Assembly (NCBI RefSeq): GCF_000166135.1
Contig: NC_014666.1
Location: forward strand, 2,418,001 to 2,482,000
Source of the DNA: Pseudofrankia inefficax
GTDB lineage: Bacteria; Actinomycetota; Actinomycetes; Frankiales; Frankiaceae
Length of the DNA stretch: 64,000 nucleotides
Direction: 5' to 3'
The position numbers were made by a program, and so were the translations under genes. Shown piece after piece: positions 1,361-10,597 of this stretch. Below the pieces are notes generated by a model. The model ran no database searches. It had not been told where the DNA came from and saw nothing but the letters and a program-made list of their open reading frames with translations. Every line of letters begins with the position of its first letter. Within the stretch, counting starts at the first letter, position 1.

Positions 1361-3049
<1,689 letters not shown>

Positions 3050-3066
3050 CCGGTCACGAACGGTGC

Positions 3067-3099
3067 CCCACGTGGGCCTGACCAGGAAAGTTATCCACG
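3067..3099. promoter_or_regulatory. Palindrome and DnaA-box-like site upstream of moxR
   Basis: The 247-bp gap between malate synthase and the MoxR gene holds a perfect 10-bp palindrome CCCACGTGGG (3067-3076). At 3091-3099 is TTATCCACG, one mismatch from a consensus DnaA box. Both are visible, but a single DnaA-like box has little weight. Either may be part of the moxR promoter region. Confidence 0.3.
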
Positions 3100-3296
3100 C
3101 GAAACATAACCCTCCGCGTCCATCACATCCCGGACTCGTAGCAGTACGCGATTCTGGCCCGTTCCACTGGCACTATGGGACGGACGGATAACGGATCCAA
3201 GGGGATCAGTGCGACGTGTTGGCCATGCGCGCCGACTCGCCGCCGGGTCGCGCGCACCGTGCGCGGCGATGAGACGGACGTAGGGCGGGGAAGTCC

Positions 3297-4181
3297 ATGT
3301 CGTTGCAGGAACACGCCTTCGCTGATGTCGCGGACGTCCGCGGCCGGTTGCGGGAGACGGGCTACCTCGCCGACGAGGCGATCGCCACCACCATCTTCCT
3401 CGCGGACCGGCTGCGCAAGCCGCTGCTGGTCGAGGGACCGGCGGGCACCGGCAAGACGGAGCTCGCCAAGGCGCTGGCCGGGTCCACCGGGGCCGAGCTG
3501 ATCCGCCTGCAGTGCTACGAGGGCCTGGACGAGGCGCGCGCGCTCTACGAGTGGAACTACAAGAAGCAGCTGCTGCGCATCCAGTCCGCGTCCGGCGACG
3601 GCGGTGGTGACTGGCGCTCGACGCACGACGACATCTTCAGCGAGGAGTTCCTGCTCGCCCGGCCGCTGCTGTCCGCGATCCGCCGGGACGGGCCGACCGT
3701 GCTGCTCATCGACGAGACCGACAAGGCCGACGTCGAGGTCGAGGGCCTGCTGCTGGAGGTGCTCTCCGACTTCCAGGTGACCATCCCGGAGCTCGGCACG
3801 ATCGCCGCGACCCGCCGGCCGTTCGTCGTCCTGACCTCGAACGCGACCCGTGAGCTGTCGGAGGCGCTCAAGCGCCGCTGCCTCTACCTGAACCTGGACT
3901 ACCCGTCGGCGGCCCGGGAGAAGGAGATCCTGCTCGCCCGGGTCCCCGAGCTGCCGGAACAGCTGGCCGAGGCGCTGGTCCGCACGGTCCGCGCGCTGCG
4001 CGCGATGGAGCTGAAGAAGGCCCCGTCGATCGCGGAGACCATCGACTGGGGCCAGACCGTGCTCGCGCTCGGTTTCGACTCGCTGGACGAGGAAGAAGTG
4101 AAGAGCACCCTGGGTGTGGTGCTCAAGCACGCGAGCGACCAGGCCCGCGCGATCAGCCAGCTCAAGCTCGGCGCCAACTGA
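3297..4181 (+). CDS. MoxR-family AAA+ ATPase
   Basis: A 294-aa MoxR/CoxD-type AAA+ ATPase. Walker A is GPAGTGKT (residues 47-54), Walker B is VLLIDE (135-140), and a sensor region reads VLTSNATRELSEALKRRCL. MoxR proteins work as chaperone-like ATPases on a partner with a von Willebrand A domain, usually for metal-cofactor insertion or complex assembly. The next gene, 46 bp downstream on the same strand, encodes exactly such a VWA protein, so the pair is almost certainly an operon. The start at ATG 3297 follows a GGGGAAG sequence. The client protein is not evident in the window. Confidence 0.92.
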   Translation: MSLQEHAFADVADVRGRLRETGYLADEAIATTIFLADRLRKPLLVEGPAGTGKTELAKALAGSTGAELIRLQCYEGLDEARALYEWNYKKQLLRIQSASGDGGGDWRSTHDDIFSEEFLLARPLLSAIRRDGPTVLLIDETDKADVEVEGLLLEVLSDFQVTIPELGTIAATRRPFVVLTSNATRELSEALKRRCLYLNLDYPSAAREKEILLARVPELPEQLAEALVRTVRALRAMELKKAPSIAETIDWGQTVLALGFDSLDEEEVKSTLGVVLKHASDQARAISQLKLGAN

Positions 4182-4227
4182 CCCGACCCGGTCGGCAGGG
4201 GTCCGGTCGGATGAACAGGGGTTTCGG

Positions 4228-5649
4228 ATGAACCTGGTGGACCGCACGGTCGAGTTCACGGCCGCGCTACGGCGGGCCGGCGTGCCGGTGAGCACGGCCG
4301 AGACCGTCGACGCCGCCCGTGCCGTCGGCGCGATCGGCTGGCTGGACCGGGAGGCCGTCCGGGCCGCCTTCGCGACCACGATGTGCAAGCGGCCGCTCTA
4401 CCGCAACGCCTTCGACACCCTGTTCGACCTGTACTTCCCGCCCCGGATCGGCGACGGCGTGGCCATCGGCGGCGACGGCGTCCCGGGCCTCGGTGACGGC
4501 GAGCCCAGCGGCGAGGAGCGCGAGCCGACCCGCGAGGAGCTGGACGCGCTGAAGAAGGCGCTGCGCGAGCAGCTCCAGCAGGCCCTGCTCGACGGCGACG
4601 ACGAGTCGCTGCGCGACCTCGCCCGCCAGGCCGTCGCCGCGTTCGGCTCCGCCCCCGGCGGCGGGCAGAACGGCCGCTCGTGGTTCGTCTTCCGGGTGCT
4701 GCGCGCGATGTCCCCGGACACCCTGATCGCCGCCCTGCTCGCCGCGATGCTCGGCCCACAGGAACGCGGCGGGCTCGCCGAGCGGATCGCCCGGCAGACC
4801 ATCACCGACCGGATCCGCTCCTTCGAGGAGATGATCCAGTCCGAGATCCGCCGCCGGATGGCCGAGGAACGCGGCCTTCAGGCCACCGAGCGCACGGCGG
4901 TCAAGCCGCTCACCGACCAGGTCGAGTTCCTGCGGGCCTCCCACCAGGACCTCGTCGAGCTGCGCCGCCAGGTCTACCCGCTGGCCCGACGGCTCGCGAC
5001 CCGGCTGACCGCCAAGCGCCGGTCCGGCCGCACCGGCCGGCTGGACTTCCGCCGCACCGTCCGCGCGTCGCTGGCCACGGGCGGCGTGCCGCTGGAGACC
5101 AAGCACCGCCCGCACAAGCCGCACAAGCCCGAGCTGGTCGTGCTGTGCGACGTCTCCGGCTCGGTCGCGTCGTTCGCGCACTTCACCCTGATGCTCACGC
5201 ACGCCCTGCGCGAGCAGTTCTCGAAGGTGCGGGCGTTCGGCTTCATCGACACGACCGACGAGGTCACCCGGTTCCTGCGCGGCGTCGACCTCGGCGACAT
5301 GATGGGCCGGATCGCCAGCGAGGCGGACCTGGTCTGGTTCGACGGCCACAGCGACTACGGCCACGCCATCGAGGTGTTCGCCGAGCGCTATCCGGACGCC
5401 GTCGGCCCCAAGACGTCCCTGCTCGTCCTCGGCGACGCCCGCAACAACTACCGCGCGACCGAGTCGACCATTTTCAAGCGGCTGTGCTCCCAGGCCCGGC
5501 ACGCCTACTGGCTGAACCCGGAGCCGAAGTCCTACTGGGGCTCCGGCGACTCGGCGACCAAGGCCTACGGCGACATCGTCGACGAGATGGTCGAGTGCCG
5601 CAACGTCGAACAGCTGGAAGCCTTCATCGAGCGGCTCCTGCCGACCTGA
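4228..5649 (+). CDS. VWA domain-containing (CoxE-like) protein
   Basis: A 473-aa protein of the CoxE/VWA family that partners MoxR ATPases. The C-terminal VWA domain carries the MIDAS start LCDVSGSV (DxSxS, about residues 306-313) and a late GDARNNYR motif typical of CoxE-like proteins. The N-terminal half is helical and charged, with a Gly-rich acidic insert around residues 70-95. ATG 4228 is chosen because it opens the conserved MNLVDRTVEF; upstream in-frame sequence overlaps moxR and looks like a shadow. Its last 60 coding bases recur in damaged form at 7306-7366, beyond the radical SAM gene. Confidence 0.9.
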   Translation: MNLVDRTVEFTAALRRAGVPVSTAETVDAARAVGAIGWLDREAVRAAFATTMCKRPLYRNAFDTLFDLYFPPRIGDGVAIGGDGVPGLGDGEPSGEEREPTREELDALKKALREQLQQALLDGDDESLRDLARQAVAAFGSAPGGGQNGRSWFVFRVLRAMSPDTLIAALLAAMLGPQERGGLAERIARQTITDRIRSFEEMIQSEIRRRMAEERGLQATERTAVKPLTDQVEFLRASHQDLVELRRQVYPLARRLATRLTAKRRSGRTGRLDFRRTVRASLATGGVPLETKHRPHKPHKPELVVLCDVSGSVASFAHFTLMLTHALREQFSKVRAFGFIDTTDEVTRFLRGVDLGDMMGRIASEADLVWFDGHSDYGHAIEVFAERYPDAVGPKTSLLVLGDARNNYRATESTIFKRLCSQARHAYWLNPEPKSYWGSGDSATKAYGDIVDEMVECRNVEQLEAFIERLLPT

Positions 5650-5788
5650 TTTCCCCGATCCGTTGGCTGTTACGCGATTCGGCGGAATCCTGTCGACCTT
5701 GCTGGGACAATTCTCCTGCGGGGCCGTGACAGCGACCGATCCTCCAGGACGCGATGGCGCCGCCCAGGTGTGCAACAGGGGGCCCATC

Positions 5789-5989
5789 ATGGACCAGTCC
5801 GCGTTCGCCGCGAGCACCAGTGACCTCGATTCCGGGATGTCCGCGCTTGACCACGCCCTCGCCCGGCGGGCGTCCGCCGACGGAGACCTGGTGAGCGGCG
5901 CCTACGTGCACAACTCAGGCCCGTGCCTGTTCCGCCCACGTCATTCCTCGTCCACGTCGGCCTCCCGGCTGACGGACACCAAGAACTGA
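5789..5989 (+). CDS. Candidate RiPP precursor peptide of the FxsB partner
   Basis: A 66-aa ORF starting at ATG 5789 behind AGGGGG (5777-5782) and ending 3 nt before the FxsB-type radical SAM gene. That size and position fit a maturase substrate. The middle part LDHALARR resembles the leader of FxsA-type precursors. The usual C-terminal F-x-S-x-x ending is absent; the tail is Ser/Thr-rich (SSSTSASRLTDTKN). Aromatic-x-x triplets that such enzymes could cyclize are YVH (residues 39-41) and FRP (48-50). What is seen is the ORF, its Shine-Dalgarno sequence and its position; the precursor role is inferred. It could instead be a degenerate precursor or a chance ORF. Confidence 0.5.
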   Translation: MDQSAFAASTSDLDSGMSALDHALARRASADGDLVSGAYVHNSGPCLFRPRHSSSTSASRLTDTKN

Positions 5990-5992
5990 CGG

Positions 5993-7273
5993 GTGGTGCC
6001 CGCCGCATTGCCGTGGCCGGTACCGGTTCGCGGGCCGGCCAACGCGGGCTTCATCCCCGCGGCGGATCGAGCGGCAGCGGCCTGGAACGCGCCGCTACCG
6101 CCCGGGTGGACGCCCACGCCGTTCCGTGAGTTCGTTCTCAAGGTCGCCTCGCGCTGCAACCTCGACTGCGACTACTGCTACGTCTATCACCTGGCCGACC
6201 AGTCGTGGCGAGCTCAGCCGCGGTTCATGACCGACGAGACAGCGGCCGCGACGGCGGACCGGGTCGCCGAGCACGTGCGAACCCACGAACTGGAGTTCGT
6301 GAACTTCCGGCTTCACGGCGGGGAGCCGCTGCTCGCGGGCCAGGATCGGCTGCGCCGGATCGTCCGCATCCTCCGTGAGCGTCTCACCCCGCTGACGGAG
6401 GTCACCGTCACGGTGCAGACGAACGGCGTGCTGCTCGACGAGCCGATGGCGGCATTCCTCCTCAAGGAGGACATCGGCGTCGGCATCAGCCTGGACGGCG
6501 ACCGATATGCCAACGACCTGCATCGCACCTACGCCGACGGCCGGTCCAGCTATGACGAGGTGGTCGCGGCTATTCGCATGATGCAGCGGCCCGAGTTCCG
6601 CTCGCATTTCCTCGGACTGCTGTGCACAATTCAACTGGAGGCGGACCCGGCCCAGGTCTGGGGCGAATTGCTCAGGCTGGGCGTCGAGGGCGCGGATTTC
6701 CTGCTCCCGCACGGCACCTGGGAAAACCCACCACCGGGCCTCACCCCGGGCGATGGTCGCACCCCTTACGCCGACTGGCTCATCCCGCTGTTCGACAGCT
6801 GGTTCGACGCGCCGATCAGGCAGCTCTCGGTGCGCACCTTCGAGTCGCTGGTGCATCTGTTGCTCGGGGGAGTAGGCGCCCACGAGTCGTTCGGGCTCGC
6901 CCCGGTCGCGCTGGTCGTCGTCGAGTCGGACGGTTCCTATGAGCAGGTGGACACGCTGAAGGCCGTCGGGCAGGGCGCCGCCGCCAGCGGTCGGACCGTG
7001 TTCACGGACCCGCTCGACGCGCTGTTCGACGTTCCGGCCTTCGTGCAGCGCCAACTCGGGCTGCATGGCCTTTCCGCCGAGTGCCACCGCTGCGAGGTCG
7101 TGGCGACCTGCGGAGCTGGGCTGTTCCCGCACCGCTACCGGCCCGGGGGCGGATTCACCAACCCGACGGTCTTCTGCGCGGACCAGTACGCGCTGATCGT
7201 CCACATACAGCGGCGCGTCGAGGAGGCTCTCGAGCGCCGGGGCACCACTCTGGCGGCCGTCCGCGCCGGTTGA
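5993..7273 (+). CDS. fxsB: FxsB-family radical SAM/SPASM peptide maturase
   Basis: A 426-aa radical SAM enzyme. The 4Fe-4S motif CNLDCDYC (C55, C59, C62) follows FREFVLKVASR, then come LHGGEPLL, QTNGVLLDE and GISLDGDR. A SPASM-like Cys cluster lies near 364-395 (CHRCEVVATCGAG, then FCADQ). The blocks HLADQSWR, DFLLPHGTW and DGSYEQVDTLK are typical of FxsB, the family that links an aromatic ring to a nearby beta-carbon in precursor peptides. It starts at GTG 5993 (or GTG 5996), 3 nt after the 66-aa ORF, so translation is probably coupled. The usual larger FXSXX neighbours (HEXXH, TIR-like proteins) are missing, so this is a minimal cassette. Confidence 0.88.
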   Translation: MVPAALPWPVPVRGPANAGFIPAADRAAAAWNAPLPPGWTPTPFREFVLKVASRCNLDCDYCYVYHLADQSWRAQPRFMTDETAAATADRVAEHVRTHELEFVNFRLHGGEPLLAGQDRLRRIVRILRERLTPLTEVTVTVQTNGVLLDEPMAAFLLKEDIGVGISLDGDRYANDLHRTYADGRSSYDEVVAAIRMMQRPEFRSHFLGLLCTIQLEADPAQVWGELLRLGVEGADFLLPHGTWENPPPGLTPGDGRTPYADWLIPLFDSWFDAPIRQLSVRTFESLVHLLLGGVGAHESFGLAPVALVVVESDGSYEQVDTLKAVGQGAAASGRTVFTDPLDALFDVPAFVQRQLGLHGLSAECHRCEVVATCGAGLFPHRYRPGGGFTNPTVFCADQYALIVHIQRRVEEALERRGTTLAAVRAG

Positions 7274-7381
7274 CCGGGCGTCGGCCCGTGTGGCTTGGAC
7301 CTGCGGGCCTACGGCGACGTCGTTGACAGGGCGGTCGAGCGCCGCGACGTCGGACACCTGGAAGCCGCATCGACTGCCTAA
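7274..7381 (+). pseudogene. Decayed duplicate of the VWA gene 3' end
   Basis: Right after the FxsB stop, the same frame stays open for 35 codons to TAA 7379-7381 and encodes RAYGDVVDRAVERRDVGHLE, close to KAYGDIVDEMVECRNVEQLE at the end of the VWA protein. At DNA level 7306-7366 aligns without gaps to 5562-5622, with about 51 of 61 bases identical by my hand count. It has no start codon or upstream part, so it is a remnant, not a gene. The two copies flank the whole RiPP-like cassette. Confidence 0.75.
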
Positions 7382-7391
7382 CGTTGAGGCC

Positions 7392-9116
7392 ATGAGGAGC
7401 TCCCCTGCGCCGTCGGATCTCGCGGCGGTGGCCGACGGAATTCTGGACGACTTGTTCGCGCGCCGGCCCGAGTGGGCGACCGAGCTCGGCGACCACAGGT
7501 TCGACGACCGGCTCACCGACTACGGCCGGGGCGCGCACGCCGACCTCGTCCGGGCGCTGGCCCGGCACCGGGCGGCGCTCGACCGGGTCGACGTCGCGGG
7601 GCTTGACCCCGAGGCGGCGGTGGACCGGTCGATGCTCTCAGACCTGCTCGCGGCCCAGGAGTTCGAAGCCACCGCGCTGCGTGAGCACGAGTGGAACCCA
7701 CTCGTCCACCTGCCCGGCCACGCGCTGCACCGTCTGCTCGCCCGGCCGTTCGCGCCAGCCCCCGATCGGCTGCGGCTGCTTGCCGGCCGGCTCGGGGCCC
7801 TGCCGGACGCGCTGGCGACCGCCAGGCGAGTCCTCGGCCCGATGCCCCGGGTGCACGTCGAGACCGCCGTCGGGCAGGCCGGTGGACTGGCCGGCCTCAT
7901 CGGTGCGGACGTAGGCGCGATGCTGGCGGGGGAGCCGTCGCTGCGCTCGCTGGTCGAGCCAGCCCAGGCGGCGGCGCTGCGAGCCGTCGAGGAGTTCGCC
8001 GACTGGCTGCGTGACCGGTTGCCCGGCGCGGCGGCCGGTTCGGGCGCTGGCGCGGATACCGAGGCCGACCGAGGGGCGGGGGACGACGGGCGTCTCGACG
8101 CCGACCCACGCGGCCCACGGCTTGGCGAACGGCTGTGGGCGGGCCGGCTCGGGCATGCGCTGGCCAGCGACCTGACCTCGGCCGAGATCGTTTCCGCGGC
8201 CCGCGAACGGCTCGACTGGCTCTCTGAGGAGATCGCCGCCGTCGCCGCCGAGTTCCTGGGCGAACCGGCTGGCCCCGGCGTCGTGCGTCGGGCCCTCGAC
8301 CGGGTGGCCGCCGACGCGCCGACCGACGCGACGGTCGTCGCCGACATCCGCGCGGCGCTCGCGGAGGTCAACGCCTTCCTCGCGGCGACGGAGCTGGTCG
8401 GCCCGACCGATGCCCCGCTGGAGGTCGTCGTGATGCCAGAGTTCGCGCGGGGCGTCTCGGTCGCCTACTGCGACCCGCCCGGACCGCTGGAGACCGCGCC
8501 TCTAACTACCTTCTACGCGATCGCCCCGACGCTCGCCGGCTGGCCTGAGGAACGCCGGCGGTCGTTCTACCGCGAGTACAACCGGGCCTCTCTGCGTAAC
8601 CTGACCGTCCACGAGGCGATCCCGGGCCATCATCTGCAGCTTGCCGCGTCCACTCGGTTCCGCGGCCCGACGCGGGTCCGGGCCGCCGCCTGGTCCGGGA
8701 CATTCACCGAGGGCTGGGCGGTCTACGCCGAGCAGCTCATGGCTGAGGCCGGCTTCGGCGGGCTGCCCGTGCGGCTGCAGCAGCTGAAGGTACAGCTGAG
8801 GATGACGATCAATGCTTTGCTCGACCACGGCGTGCATTGCGAAGGGATGTCCCGCGCGGAGGCGATGTCCCTGATGAGGGATCGCGGGCTACAGGAGGAG
8901 GGCGAGGCCTTCGGCAAGTGGCGCCGGGCGCTGCTGACCTCCGGACAGCTGTCCACCTATTTCGTGGGCTGGAAGGAGCTGACCGAACTCCGCCAGTCGC
9001 TGAGCCCGGCGCCTTCGGCCCTGCGCGCCTTCCACGACGAGCTCCTCGCGCACGGCTCACCCCCGCCCCGCCACCTGCGCGCATTGCTGCGCACCTCGGC
9101 CTTCATCACCGCCTGA
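7392..9116 (+). CDS. DUF885 family protein (predicted metallohydrolase)
   Basis: A 574-aa DUF885 protein, the usual length for the family. The characteristic motif HEAIPGHH is at about residues 407-414, and downstream are FTEGWAVYAEQLM and an MTINALLDHG segment. The His-Glu-...-His pattern and helical architecture suggest a zinc peptidase-like fold, but the family reaction is not settled. The start at ATG 7392 follows GAGG (7386-7389). An Ala/Gly/Asp-rich insert (around residues 215-240) breaks the conserved N-terminal part. No signal peptide is evident. It lies just downstream of the VWA remnant, so it was probably next to the VWA gene before the cassette arrived. Confidence 0.85.
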   Translation: MRSSPAPSDLAAVADGILDDLFARRPEWATELGDHRFDDRLTDYGRGAHADLVRALARHRAALDRVDVAGLDPEAAVDRSMLSDLLAAQEFEATALREHEWNPLVHLPGHALHRLLARPFAPAPDRLRLLAGRLGALPDALATARRVLGPMPRVHVETAVGQAGGLAGLIGADVGAMLAGEPSLRSLVEPAQAAALRAVEEFADWLRDRLPGAAAGSGAGADTEADRGAGDDGRLDADPRGPRLGERLWAGRLGHALASDLTSAEIVSAARERLDWLSEEIAAVAAEFLGEPAGPGVVRRALDRVAADAPTDATVVADIRAALAEVNAFLAATELVGPTDAPLEVVVMPEFARGVSVAYCDPPGPLETAPLTTFYAIAPTLAGWPEERRRSFYREYNRASLRNLTVHEAIPGHHLQLAASTRFRGPTRVRAAAWSGTFTEGWAVYAEQLMAEAGFGGLPVRLQQLKVQLRMTINALLDHGVHCEGMSRAEAMSLMRDRGLQEEGEAFGKWRRALLTSGQLSTYFVGWKELTELRQSLSPAPSALRAFHDELLAHGSPPPRHLRALLRTSAFITA

Positions 9117-9349
9117 CCAGCCATCCAACGCCGGGGGTCCGGTACGCCAGTTCAGTCCTGCGCGATCGTCGCGGTCTCGCTCCGCTCAACAACCACGGCG
9201 TAGCGCGGCGGGTCGGCGGCCGGGACTGTCGGTGCGCCGCGCCGGCTCTCCGCCATTTCCGGGTGATGTGAACCAGTCTGCGGCCGGGCGCGTCCAACGT
9301 CATCGTGGTGCCTCAGAGCGCACCGCGCAGACCGAGGAGGAACGCGGCG

Positions 9350-10597
9350 ATGGCGGTGGACGAACTTCTGGACACCCGGGTCGAGCCCGTGGCCGATGGG
9401 CGGGACGACAGTCCCGGTGTGGGAGCAGGCCGCTGGCCGGCTGGCTCGCGGGGGATTCGCTTCTCCCGCCGAGGCGTGATCGTCGCGGCGGTCGTGCTGG
9501 TCGGCATCGTGGTGCTGGTAGCGGTGCTAGGCAGCGTCGTCGGCTCACGTGGCGGCAATGGAGGCGACAGCTCCAGCGGCAGCGCGAGGTCGGTCCCGGC
9601 CGCCGCTCCGGCGGGTGGTTTCGGCGTCAACAGTGCGGACAGCTCGGCCGGCGGGACCGAGATCGCGCCCGACTCCGCCGCCGCACCGGCGGCCGGCGCC
9701 GCCTCGTCCGTCGCGGGCTCCGGGGTGGCGCCGGCTCCGACGGGCGCCGACTCGGGCGCCGGGCGGCCGGCCGGGGTCCAGCCGCGCATCGTGTGGACCG
9801 GGTCGATGAACGTCCAGGTGGCGGCCGGCGCCGTCGATCCGACGATCCACAAGATCTCCGCCGCCGCGCAGGGACTGGGCGGCTACCTGTCGGCCAACCA
9901 GGTGACCGGTACGGCGACCACCACCGACGACGTCCCGCAGAGCGCCACGATCACCGTCCGGGTGCCCGCGGCCTCGTTCGGCAAGCTGCAGGACGCCGTC
10001 ACCGGCGTCGGCACCGTCCAGTCGTCCACGACGTCCTCCCAGGACGTCACCGCCCAGTACGTCGACCTGCAGGCCCGTGAGGACGCGCTGACGACGTCGC
10101 GGGGCACCTACCTGACGTTGCTGTCGAAGGCGACGACGGTCGGCGACATCCTTGCCGTCCAGCAGCAGATCGACGGGGTCCAGACGCAGATCGAGCAGAT
10201 CGAGGGACAGCGCAAGGTCCTCGCCGACCAGAGCGACCTGGGCACCCTGACCGTCGACCTGAGCGAGAAGGGCGCCCAGGTGCACGAGCCGGGCAAGGAG
10301 AACGGCTTCGTGCACGCGTTCCGCGTCGCGGGCCGCAGCTTCCTGCGCGGCCTGGAGGGCATCATCTCCGCGCTCGGCGTGGTCGCGCTCATCGCGCTGG
10401 TGGTCGCCGTCCTTTACCTGCTCTACCGCCTGGTCGGCCGGATTCGCCGTGGTACCGGTGGCACCCCGGCCAGCCGGGTAGCTGTCCCGGCACCTGCCGC
10501 CAGGAAGGCCAGGCCCACCGAGGCGACCGCCGTCGCGGACGACGAGCCCGGCACCGAGACGACCGGCGGCGTCGAGACCACGGGCGGCGGGGGCTGA
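9350..10597 (+). CDS. DUF4349 membrane-anchored protein
   Basis: A 415-aa envelope protein. The N-terminus is cytosolic; a membrane helix (about residues 43-62, VIVAAVVLVGIVVLVAVLGS) is followed by a Ser/Gly/Ala-rich linker. The DUF4349 domain follows (WTGSMNVQV through SDLGTLTVDL), with a coiled-coil middle rich in Gln and Glu (VQQQIDGVQTQIEQIEGQRK). A second helix is near 345-367, then a basic and acidic tail. The start at ATG 9350 has GAGGAGG 9 nt upstream. The family has no fixed function; the topology suggests an extracytoplasmic coiled-coil domain between two helices. A convergent hairpin follows the stop. Confidence 0.85.
   Translation: MAVDELLDTRVEPVADGRDDSPGVGAGRWPAGSRGIRFSRRGVIVAAVVLVGIVVLVAVLGSVVGSRGGNGGDSSSGSARSVPAAAPAGGFGVNSADSSAGGTEIAPDSAAAPAAGAASSVAGSGVAPAPTGADSGAGRPAGVQPRIVWTGSMNVQVAAGAVDPTIHKISAAAQGLGGYLSANQVTGTATTTDDVPQSATITVRVPAASFGKLQDAVTGVGTVQSSTTSSQDVTAQYVDLQAREDALTTSRGTYLTLLSKATTVGDILAVQQQIDGVQTQIEQIEGQRKVLADQSDLGTLTVDLSEKGAQVHEPGKENGFVHAFRVAGRSFLRGLEGIISALGVVALIALVVAVLYLLYRLVGRIRRGTGGTPASRVAVPAPAARKARPTEATAVADDEPGTETTGGVETTGGGG

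Follow-up and report, generated by a model that had tools for sequence, protein, structure and literature searches.

Gene order and the second VWA 3' end

The window analysed here (64,000 nucleotides of Pseudofrankia inefficax, positions 2,418,001 to 2,482,000 of contig NC_014666.1) contains, in this order, genes for malate synthase, a MoxR-like AAA ATPase and a CoxE-like VWA protein, a 66-amino-acid open reading frame (ORF), the maturase gene fxsB, a decayed copy of the 3' end of the VWA gene, and genes for a DUF885 and a DUF4349 protein. The intact VWA gene (4228-5649; all features are on the forward strand unless stated otherwise) matches Pfam VWA_CoxE (PF05762, E 1.1e-44), and its product shows 98.5% amino acid identity in two members of the genus, G001 and G002 (Frankia sp. 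AgB1.9). The precursor-peptide-like gene that follows (5789-5989, 66 amino acids, hereafter fxsA) holds the conserved stretch SGAYVHNSGPCLFRPR and has no FxSxx C-terminus, and fxsB (5993-7273) encodes a radical SAM/SPASM cyclophane-forming maturase that scores 468.5 bits against TIGR04269, with a cut-off of 370. The DUF885 gene (7392-9116; PF05960, E 6.6e-101) lies behind the VWA remnant, and the DUF4349 gene (9350-10597; PF14257), whose relatives are found downstream of VWA elsewhere too, is the right bound of a variable slot behind VWA.

A preliminary description of this DNA had noted an ungapped match of about 51 of 61 bases between 7306-7366 and the stretch 5562-5622 within the VWA 3' end, and the exact count was indeed 51 of 61. 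The two copies enclose the precursor-like ORF and fxsB, so the cassette is placed between two VWA 3' ends as that description had stated. When the two 61-base-pair stretches were extended outward, the homology to the VWA end ran rightward, interrupted by a small gap, as far as about 7379, and the resulting remnant (7306-7381) is a decayed VWA 3' end consisting of the 61-base-pair copy and a short tail, with small deletions and an in-frame TAA at 7379-7381 that terminates the VWA frame. On the left, the homology stopped abruptly at 7306, which is separated from the fxsB stop codon by 32 bases, and the likeness of 7274-7305 to the VWA stretch 5500-5561 was no better than that of random pieces. 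The assertion that both copies encode the same C-terminal peptide held only in part, since 13 of 20 residues of the remnant read in the VWA frame agree with the intact copy and the other 7 are altered.

The match stands well apart from the background. The next-best place for the repeat in the window, after the VWA gene and the remnant and with both strands considered, matched at 36 of 61 bases, and the best ungapped score among random 118-nucleotide pieces (n = 400, drawn from 9200 onward) was 18, as compared with the 41 observed. A search of the same genome with 7274-7391 gave two matches, the query itself and the VWA end, and no third copy of the VWA tail was found in the window or in the genome, where 40 of the 187 candidates were scored.

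The ten changes that distinguish the remnant from the intact copy are distributed as 5, 3 and 2 over codon positions 1, 2 and 3, so that eight of them fall at positions 1 and 2. By comparison, the seven functional tails of the relatives have pooled changes of 2, 4 and 22, the last figure including one undetermined base; Fisher's test gives P 0.002 whether or not this base is counted, the rows compared not being independent. The pattern of change in the remnant thus ignores coding, as in dead sequence.

The slot behind VWA in related genomes

The region behind VWA was compared in eight genomes of the genus including this one, with one genome per species; in a wider search, a VWA match was present in 53 of 58 genomes, this genome and weak paralogues being counted. 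G002 is the closest relative, with about 92-96% DNA identity as against about 86-89% for G001 (long matches among those listed for a neighbouring 19-kilobase (kb) query), and it was joined with this strain at support 1.0 in a local three-gene tree. In G002, DUF885 follows VWA directly, the VWA stop codon overlaps the DUF885 start (TGATG), and neither cassette nor remnant lies between them; the parent state moxR-VWA-DUF885 that the preliminary description had postulated therefore exists in the closest relative compared. Behind VWA, the P. inefficax genome carries fxsA-fxsB-remnant-DUF885, G001 and G005 (Pseudofrankia sp. BMG5.36) carry fxsA-fxsB-TPR, and G003 (Frankia nepalensis CN7) and G004 (Pseudofrankia asymbiotica NRRL B-16386) carry fxsA-fxsB-DUF885 with no remnant. 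In G006 (locus L040) the order is DUF4349-DUF885-DUF4349, another rearranged state of the slot in which DUF885 stands between two DUF4349-like genes, and in G007 (metagenome-assembled genome HOG45C) none of these genes occurs in the 4.3 kb that remain on the contig. The cassette is thus found behind VWA in five of the eight genomes, which are spread across the genus tree.

These arrangements bear on how a second VWA end came to lie behind fxsB. In line with one proposal of the preliminary description, a full tandem VWA gene could once have stood at this site and been replaced, or else eroded to its tail, and the remnant is indeed a VWA 3' end. However, the eight genus genomes yielded no tandem VWA gene (in three of them the first-look candidates were only partly scored), the sole second match in the genus is a paralogue of 25% identity in G003, and the homology breaks off sharply so close behind the fxsB stop codon, all of which makes this origin very unlikely. 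Even more improbable is the insertion of the cassette, as a mobile element, into the VWA 3' end, with the two VWA ends as an attachment-site or target duplication. Direct repeats do flank the cassette, and a related cassette occurs elsewhere in Parafrankia soli NRRL B-16219 (G017); but neither gene between the copies encodes a recombinase and there is little room for another (overlapping ORFs were not family-searched), the copies are only 84% identical, and no second VWA tail accompanies the cassette in the four other cassette-bearing members of the genus or in a 14-kb stretch of P. soli.

The latter result comes from queries with the VWA tail and the remnant, which detected the 61-base copy in L053, the locus that holds the remnant of the window and that served as positive control. 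No second VWA tail was found in L035 (G001), L037, L038, L039 (G005), G002 or the 14-kb P. soli stretch, where the matches outside the VWA gene of each locus were words of 10 to 20 bases only. A recurrent hotspot of second VWA tails was considered as well and rejected, since the extra matches, in the loci that had more than one match, were chance words or pieces of a split VWA gene and an open check on seven loci found the copy only in L053. A repeat-mediated deletion that would have yielded G002 from a window-like state was not favoured either, the VWA end of G002 being intact and free of the changes of the remnant.

Because four other cassette-bearing members of the genus (G001, G003, G004 and G005) have no remnant and the supported splits of fxsB match the species tree, the cassette was present in this genus before the scar formed, and the scar reflects a later swap rather than the origin of the cassette. 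Relatives that have the cassette but no remnant are also the case that the preliminary description had itself named as refuting its view. Recombination between two duplicated VWA ends as the way in which the cassette entered is not supported, and the sequence of events has to be revised, with a long-established peptide cassette and a more recent scar. Of the earlier interpretation, then, the parent state stands, while the duplicated-VWA route and the tandem gene are not supported. Since the divergence of fxsB from G001 is about what vertical inheritance would produce, and since the splits that its tree supports fit the species tree, the cassette is most simply regarded as an old resident that was lost in some members.

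A probable joint between two arrangements

The two sides of the scar correspond to different relatives. The stretch 2896-7288 forms one BLAST alignment to VWA-fxsA-fxsB of G001, which ends 15 bases past the fxsB stop codon (7274-7288, the same as in G001), and the stretch 7306-9090 forms one BLAST alignment to the VWA tail and DUF885 of G002, so that the rightward homology of the remnant, when followed against G002, runs on collinearly into DUF885. The breakpoint at 7288/7306 joins sequences without similarity. Both flanks of the slot are G002-like and VWA is common to both arrangements, which gives one homologous side and one non-homologous joint. The most fitting reading of the window is therefore that two alleles of the slot, VWA-fxsAB and VWA-DUF885, were joined in it, and that the remnant lies next to DUF885 as the VWA end behind which DUF885 formerly stood. 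These data suggest that the chromosome was joined here, by ordinary bacterial recombination, from two gene arrangements that still exist in relatives.

Taken together, the order intact VWA, fxsA, fxsB, orphaned VWA tail and DUF885 is with good probability a scar left by the joining of two slot alleles. The region from VWA to the DUF4349 gene is variable in the genus, and its states include VWA-DUF885 and VWA-fxsA-fxsB, the latter in some genomes followed by a convergent TPR gene; a piece of one allele would have been joined to the other in the ancestry of this strain. On one side the exchange would have proceeded by ordinary homology, and on the other an illegitimate joint would have connected the position 15 bases past fxsB to a point about 88 bases before the VWA end of the VWA-DUF885 allele; the orphaned VWA tail, left without a job, would have decayed since. 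A single event of homology-facilitated illegitimate recombination appears to be the route. In PMC3240628 this process is described as homology at one side and joining without homology at the other, and the anatomy of the locus would fit it, with a displaced gene 3' end sitting downstream of new material; unlike the described process, the event here is old and is reconstructed from sequence alone. Displaced 3' ends at Vibrio type VI secretion system (T6SS) and Rhs loci have been proposed, in the parts of PMC5361080 that deal with them, to stem from such recombination, although the piece displaced here is the end of a chaperone-type VWA gene and not an effector gene, an immunity gene or an Rhs tip. 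As the joint and both parental arrangements survive in sequenced relatives, the outcome of a one-sided illegitimate recombination can be followed at single-base resolution and given a rough date. Little is known about uptake routes in this genus.

Several observations weigh against this explanation. Microhomology at the illegitimate joint is a feature of homology-facilitated illegitimate recombination, and none is visible in the decayed sequence; moreover, the 17 bases between the two alignments (7289-7305, no strand assigned) match neither parental type. With one genome per species, the two alleles are seen in different species and not within one. In addition, the ten changes in the 61 bases of the remnant exceed the 3 to 6 expected since the split from G002 by a four-fold-site clock (P 0.001 to 0.05), and the spacer between the malate synthase and AAA genes is slower still, with 7 differences in 247 bases from G002 (20 of 247 from G001), perhaps because it holds signals. 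For comparison, 23 differences from G001 were counted in the 129 bases of the VWA-fxsA spacer. The remnant agrees with the tails of this genome, G001 and G002 at 51, 50 and 50 of 61 bases, respectively, and with those of G003-G007 at 44 to 48. Because of the excess of changes, and provided that four-fold sites are a fair clock, the joint may be about as old as, or older than, the split from G002, unless unconstrained DNA accumulates changes more quickly than such sites do.

The direction of the joining is about evenly balanced between fxsAB having been placed before DUF885 and a tail-DUF885 block having been placed behind fxsB. In the first case, a VWA-fxsA-fxsB fragment would have entered a VWA-DUF885 chromosome with VWA as its homologous anchor, and its free end would have joined inside the recipient VWA gene and pushed the old VWA end downstream, which comes close to what the preliminary description had envisaged. 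That the nearest relative, G002, has VWA-DUF885 speaks for this course, as do the displaced 3' ends of such origin proposed in part of PMC5361080 for the Vibrio T6SS and Rhs loci. Nevertheless, the four-fold divergence of fxsB from G001 (23.2%) is about that of vertically inherited genes, the neighbouring genes giving 7.9% (AAA), 16.4% (VWA), 20.4% (malate synthase) and 33.8% (DUF4349), and the supported splits of the fxsB tree match the species tree, although one fxsB split has a support of only 0.595. The VWA 3' half is, in addition, G002-like in four blocks from 4946, with 30 shared sites versus 10 shared with G001 (16 of the 30 in one 200-base block), and the donor would necessarily have been very close kin. 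The entry of fxsAB is thus a tentative reading, somewhat short of an even chance.

In the second case, a fragment from the VWA tail to DUF885 would have replaced what followed fxsB in a VWA-fxsAB chromosome, a position that the TPR gene occupies in G001 and G005. The presence of the cassette behind VWA in five of the eight genomes across the tree points this way, and so does the TPR gene that follows fxsB in G001, G005 and P. soli, of which this genome has no close homologue (best match 38%, partial). DUF885 and DUF4349 are also further from G002 than the left flank is (17.1% versus 10.8% of four-fold sites, P 0.002), but this difference may reflect codon bias. Moreover, no trace of a TPR gene was found in 9081-9245, and DUF885 would need either two separate entries or an origin in the G002 lineage. 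The replacement behind fxsB is accordingly also held as a possibility just under even.

A sliding three-way comparison was used to look for an imported tract, which was rejected because no clean tract edge appeared. The left flank and 4946-5660 favour G002, and between them the stretch 3546-4946, which lies within the AAA and VWA genes, shares marginally more sites with G001 than with G002 (31 versus 24), hinting at further exchange.

The peptide cassette and neighbouring features

The 66-amino-acid precursor gave no NCBIfam or Pfam match. Relatives of it were found in G001, G003, G004, G005 and P. soli, and they share the motif GAY[VA]HNSGP and a following F. The precursor ends in TDTKN and its relatives in the same five genomes also lack an FxSxx C-terminus; by contrast, the ORFs upstream of two other fxsB genes in this genome end in FQSSI and FDSSI. 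The radical SAM motif is CX3CX2C, and the FxsB translation carries it as CNLDCDYC, with a match to Pfam Radical_SAM. The precursor (E <=0.001) and this type of fxsB (E <=1e-140) occurred in the same 6 of 393 sampled genomes of the class, this genome included. When a plasmid collection was searched with fxsB, 164 records matched, all with less than 60% identity.

Like the FxsB-type triceptide cassettes (TIGR04269), the cassette combines a maturase above the cut-off with a short precursor-like gene next to it, whereas the precursor here ends without FxSxx. The neighbourhood also resembles the MoxR-vWA ternary systems with FxSxx peptide-processing genes, as presented in part of PMC7159879, in combining genes for a MoxR ATPase and a vWA protein with those for a precursor and a radical SAM-SPASM enzyme. 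Those systems further include a VMAP gene and a metallopeptidase gene within one operon. The locus here differs from them in that the AAA-VWA pair is also seen, in the loci of the family that were examined, where the cassette is absent, and in that the cassette is also found away from VWA: in P. soli (locus L152), the fxsA-fxsB-TPR unit lies on a contig other than that of the VWA locus, so this unit can occur elsewhere.

Enzymes that form three-residue cyclophanes link Phe-Ser, Tyr-Asp, His-Ala and Tyr or His-Arg, among others, as listed in part of PMC11002830. Because known enzymes link such kinds of residues, His-Asn-Ser or Tyr-x-His would be a plausible crosslinked motif in the precursor. 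It is conceivable, at somewhat less than an even chance, that the slot houses a lineage-restricted cyclophane pair with a new class of precursor and a predicted His-Ser or Tyr-His crosslink, and that the scar records a natural swap of this pair with a DUF885 gene at one site. Judged from the open-licence literature, the precursor type might be undescribed so far. A precursor without FxSxx is in any case a small, testable lead for peptide chemists.

The TPR gene that stands convergently after fxsB in G001 (L035 6074-8728, reverse strand) is also present in G005 and P. soli, at 78-79% identity to that of G001. The TPR protein of G001 matches DUF4062 and TPR above the cut-off, and its scores for NB-ARC, HaaT and FxSxx_TPR fall short of it; HaaT, the TPR protein of HaaA-type systems and the best cyclophane-type match, reaches 251 bits, far under its cut-off of 1125.

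About 150 bases of the window, at approximately 9091-9240 (from the very end of DUF885 to before DUF4349), do not align to G002; when 58 genomes were searched with 9090-9245, all matches other than the query itself were short and weak, and no convincing source was found. PADLOC gave no convincing defence assignment, with weak matches only to AAA, viperin-like radical SAM and TPR entries. The MoxR-like AAA ATPase gene (3297-4181; Pfam AAA and AAA_5) is common to both alleles, and its product shows 99% amino acid identity in G001 and G002; the top NCBIfam match of this protein is NF047784 MadB, with 304 bits under a cut-off of 475. Upstream of the AAA gene, the interval to the malate synthase gene is longer by about 1.5 kb in G005 and G006 (L039 and L040).

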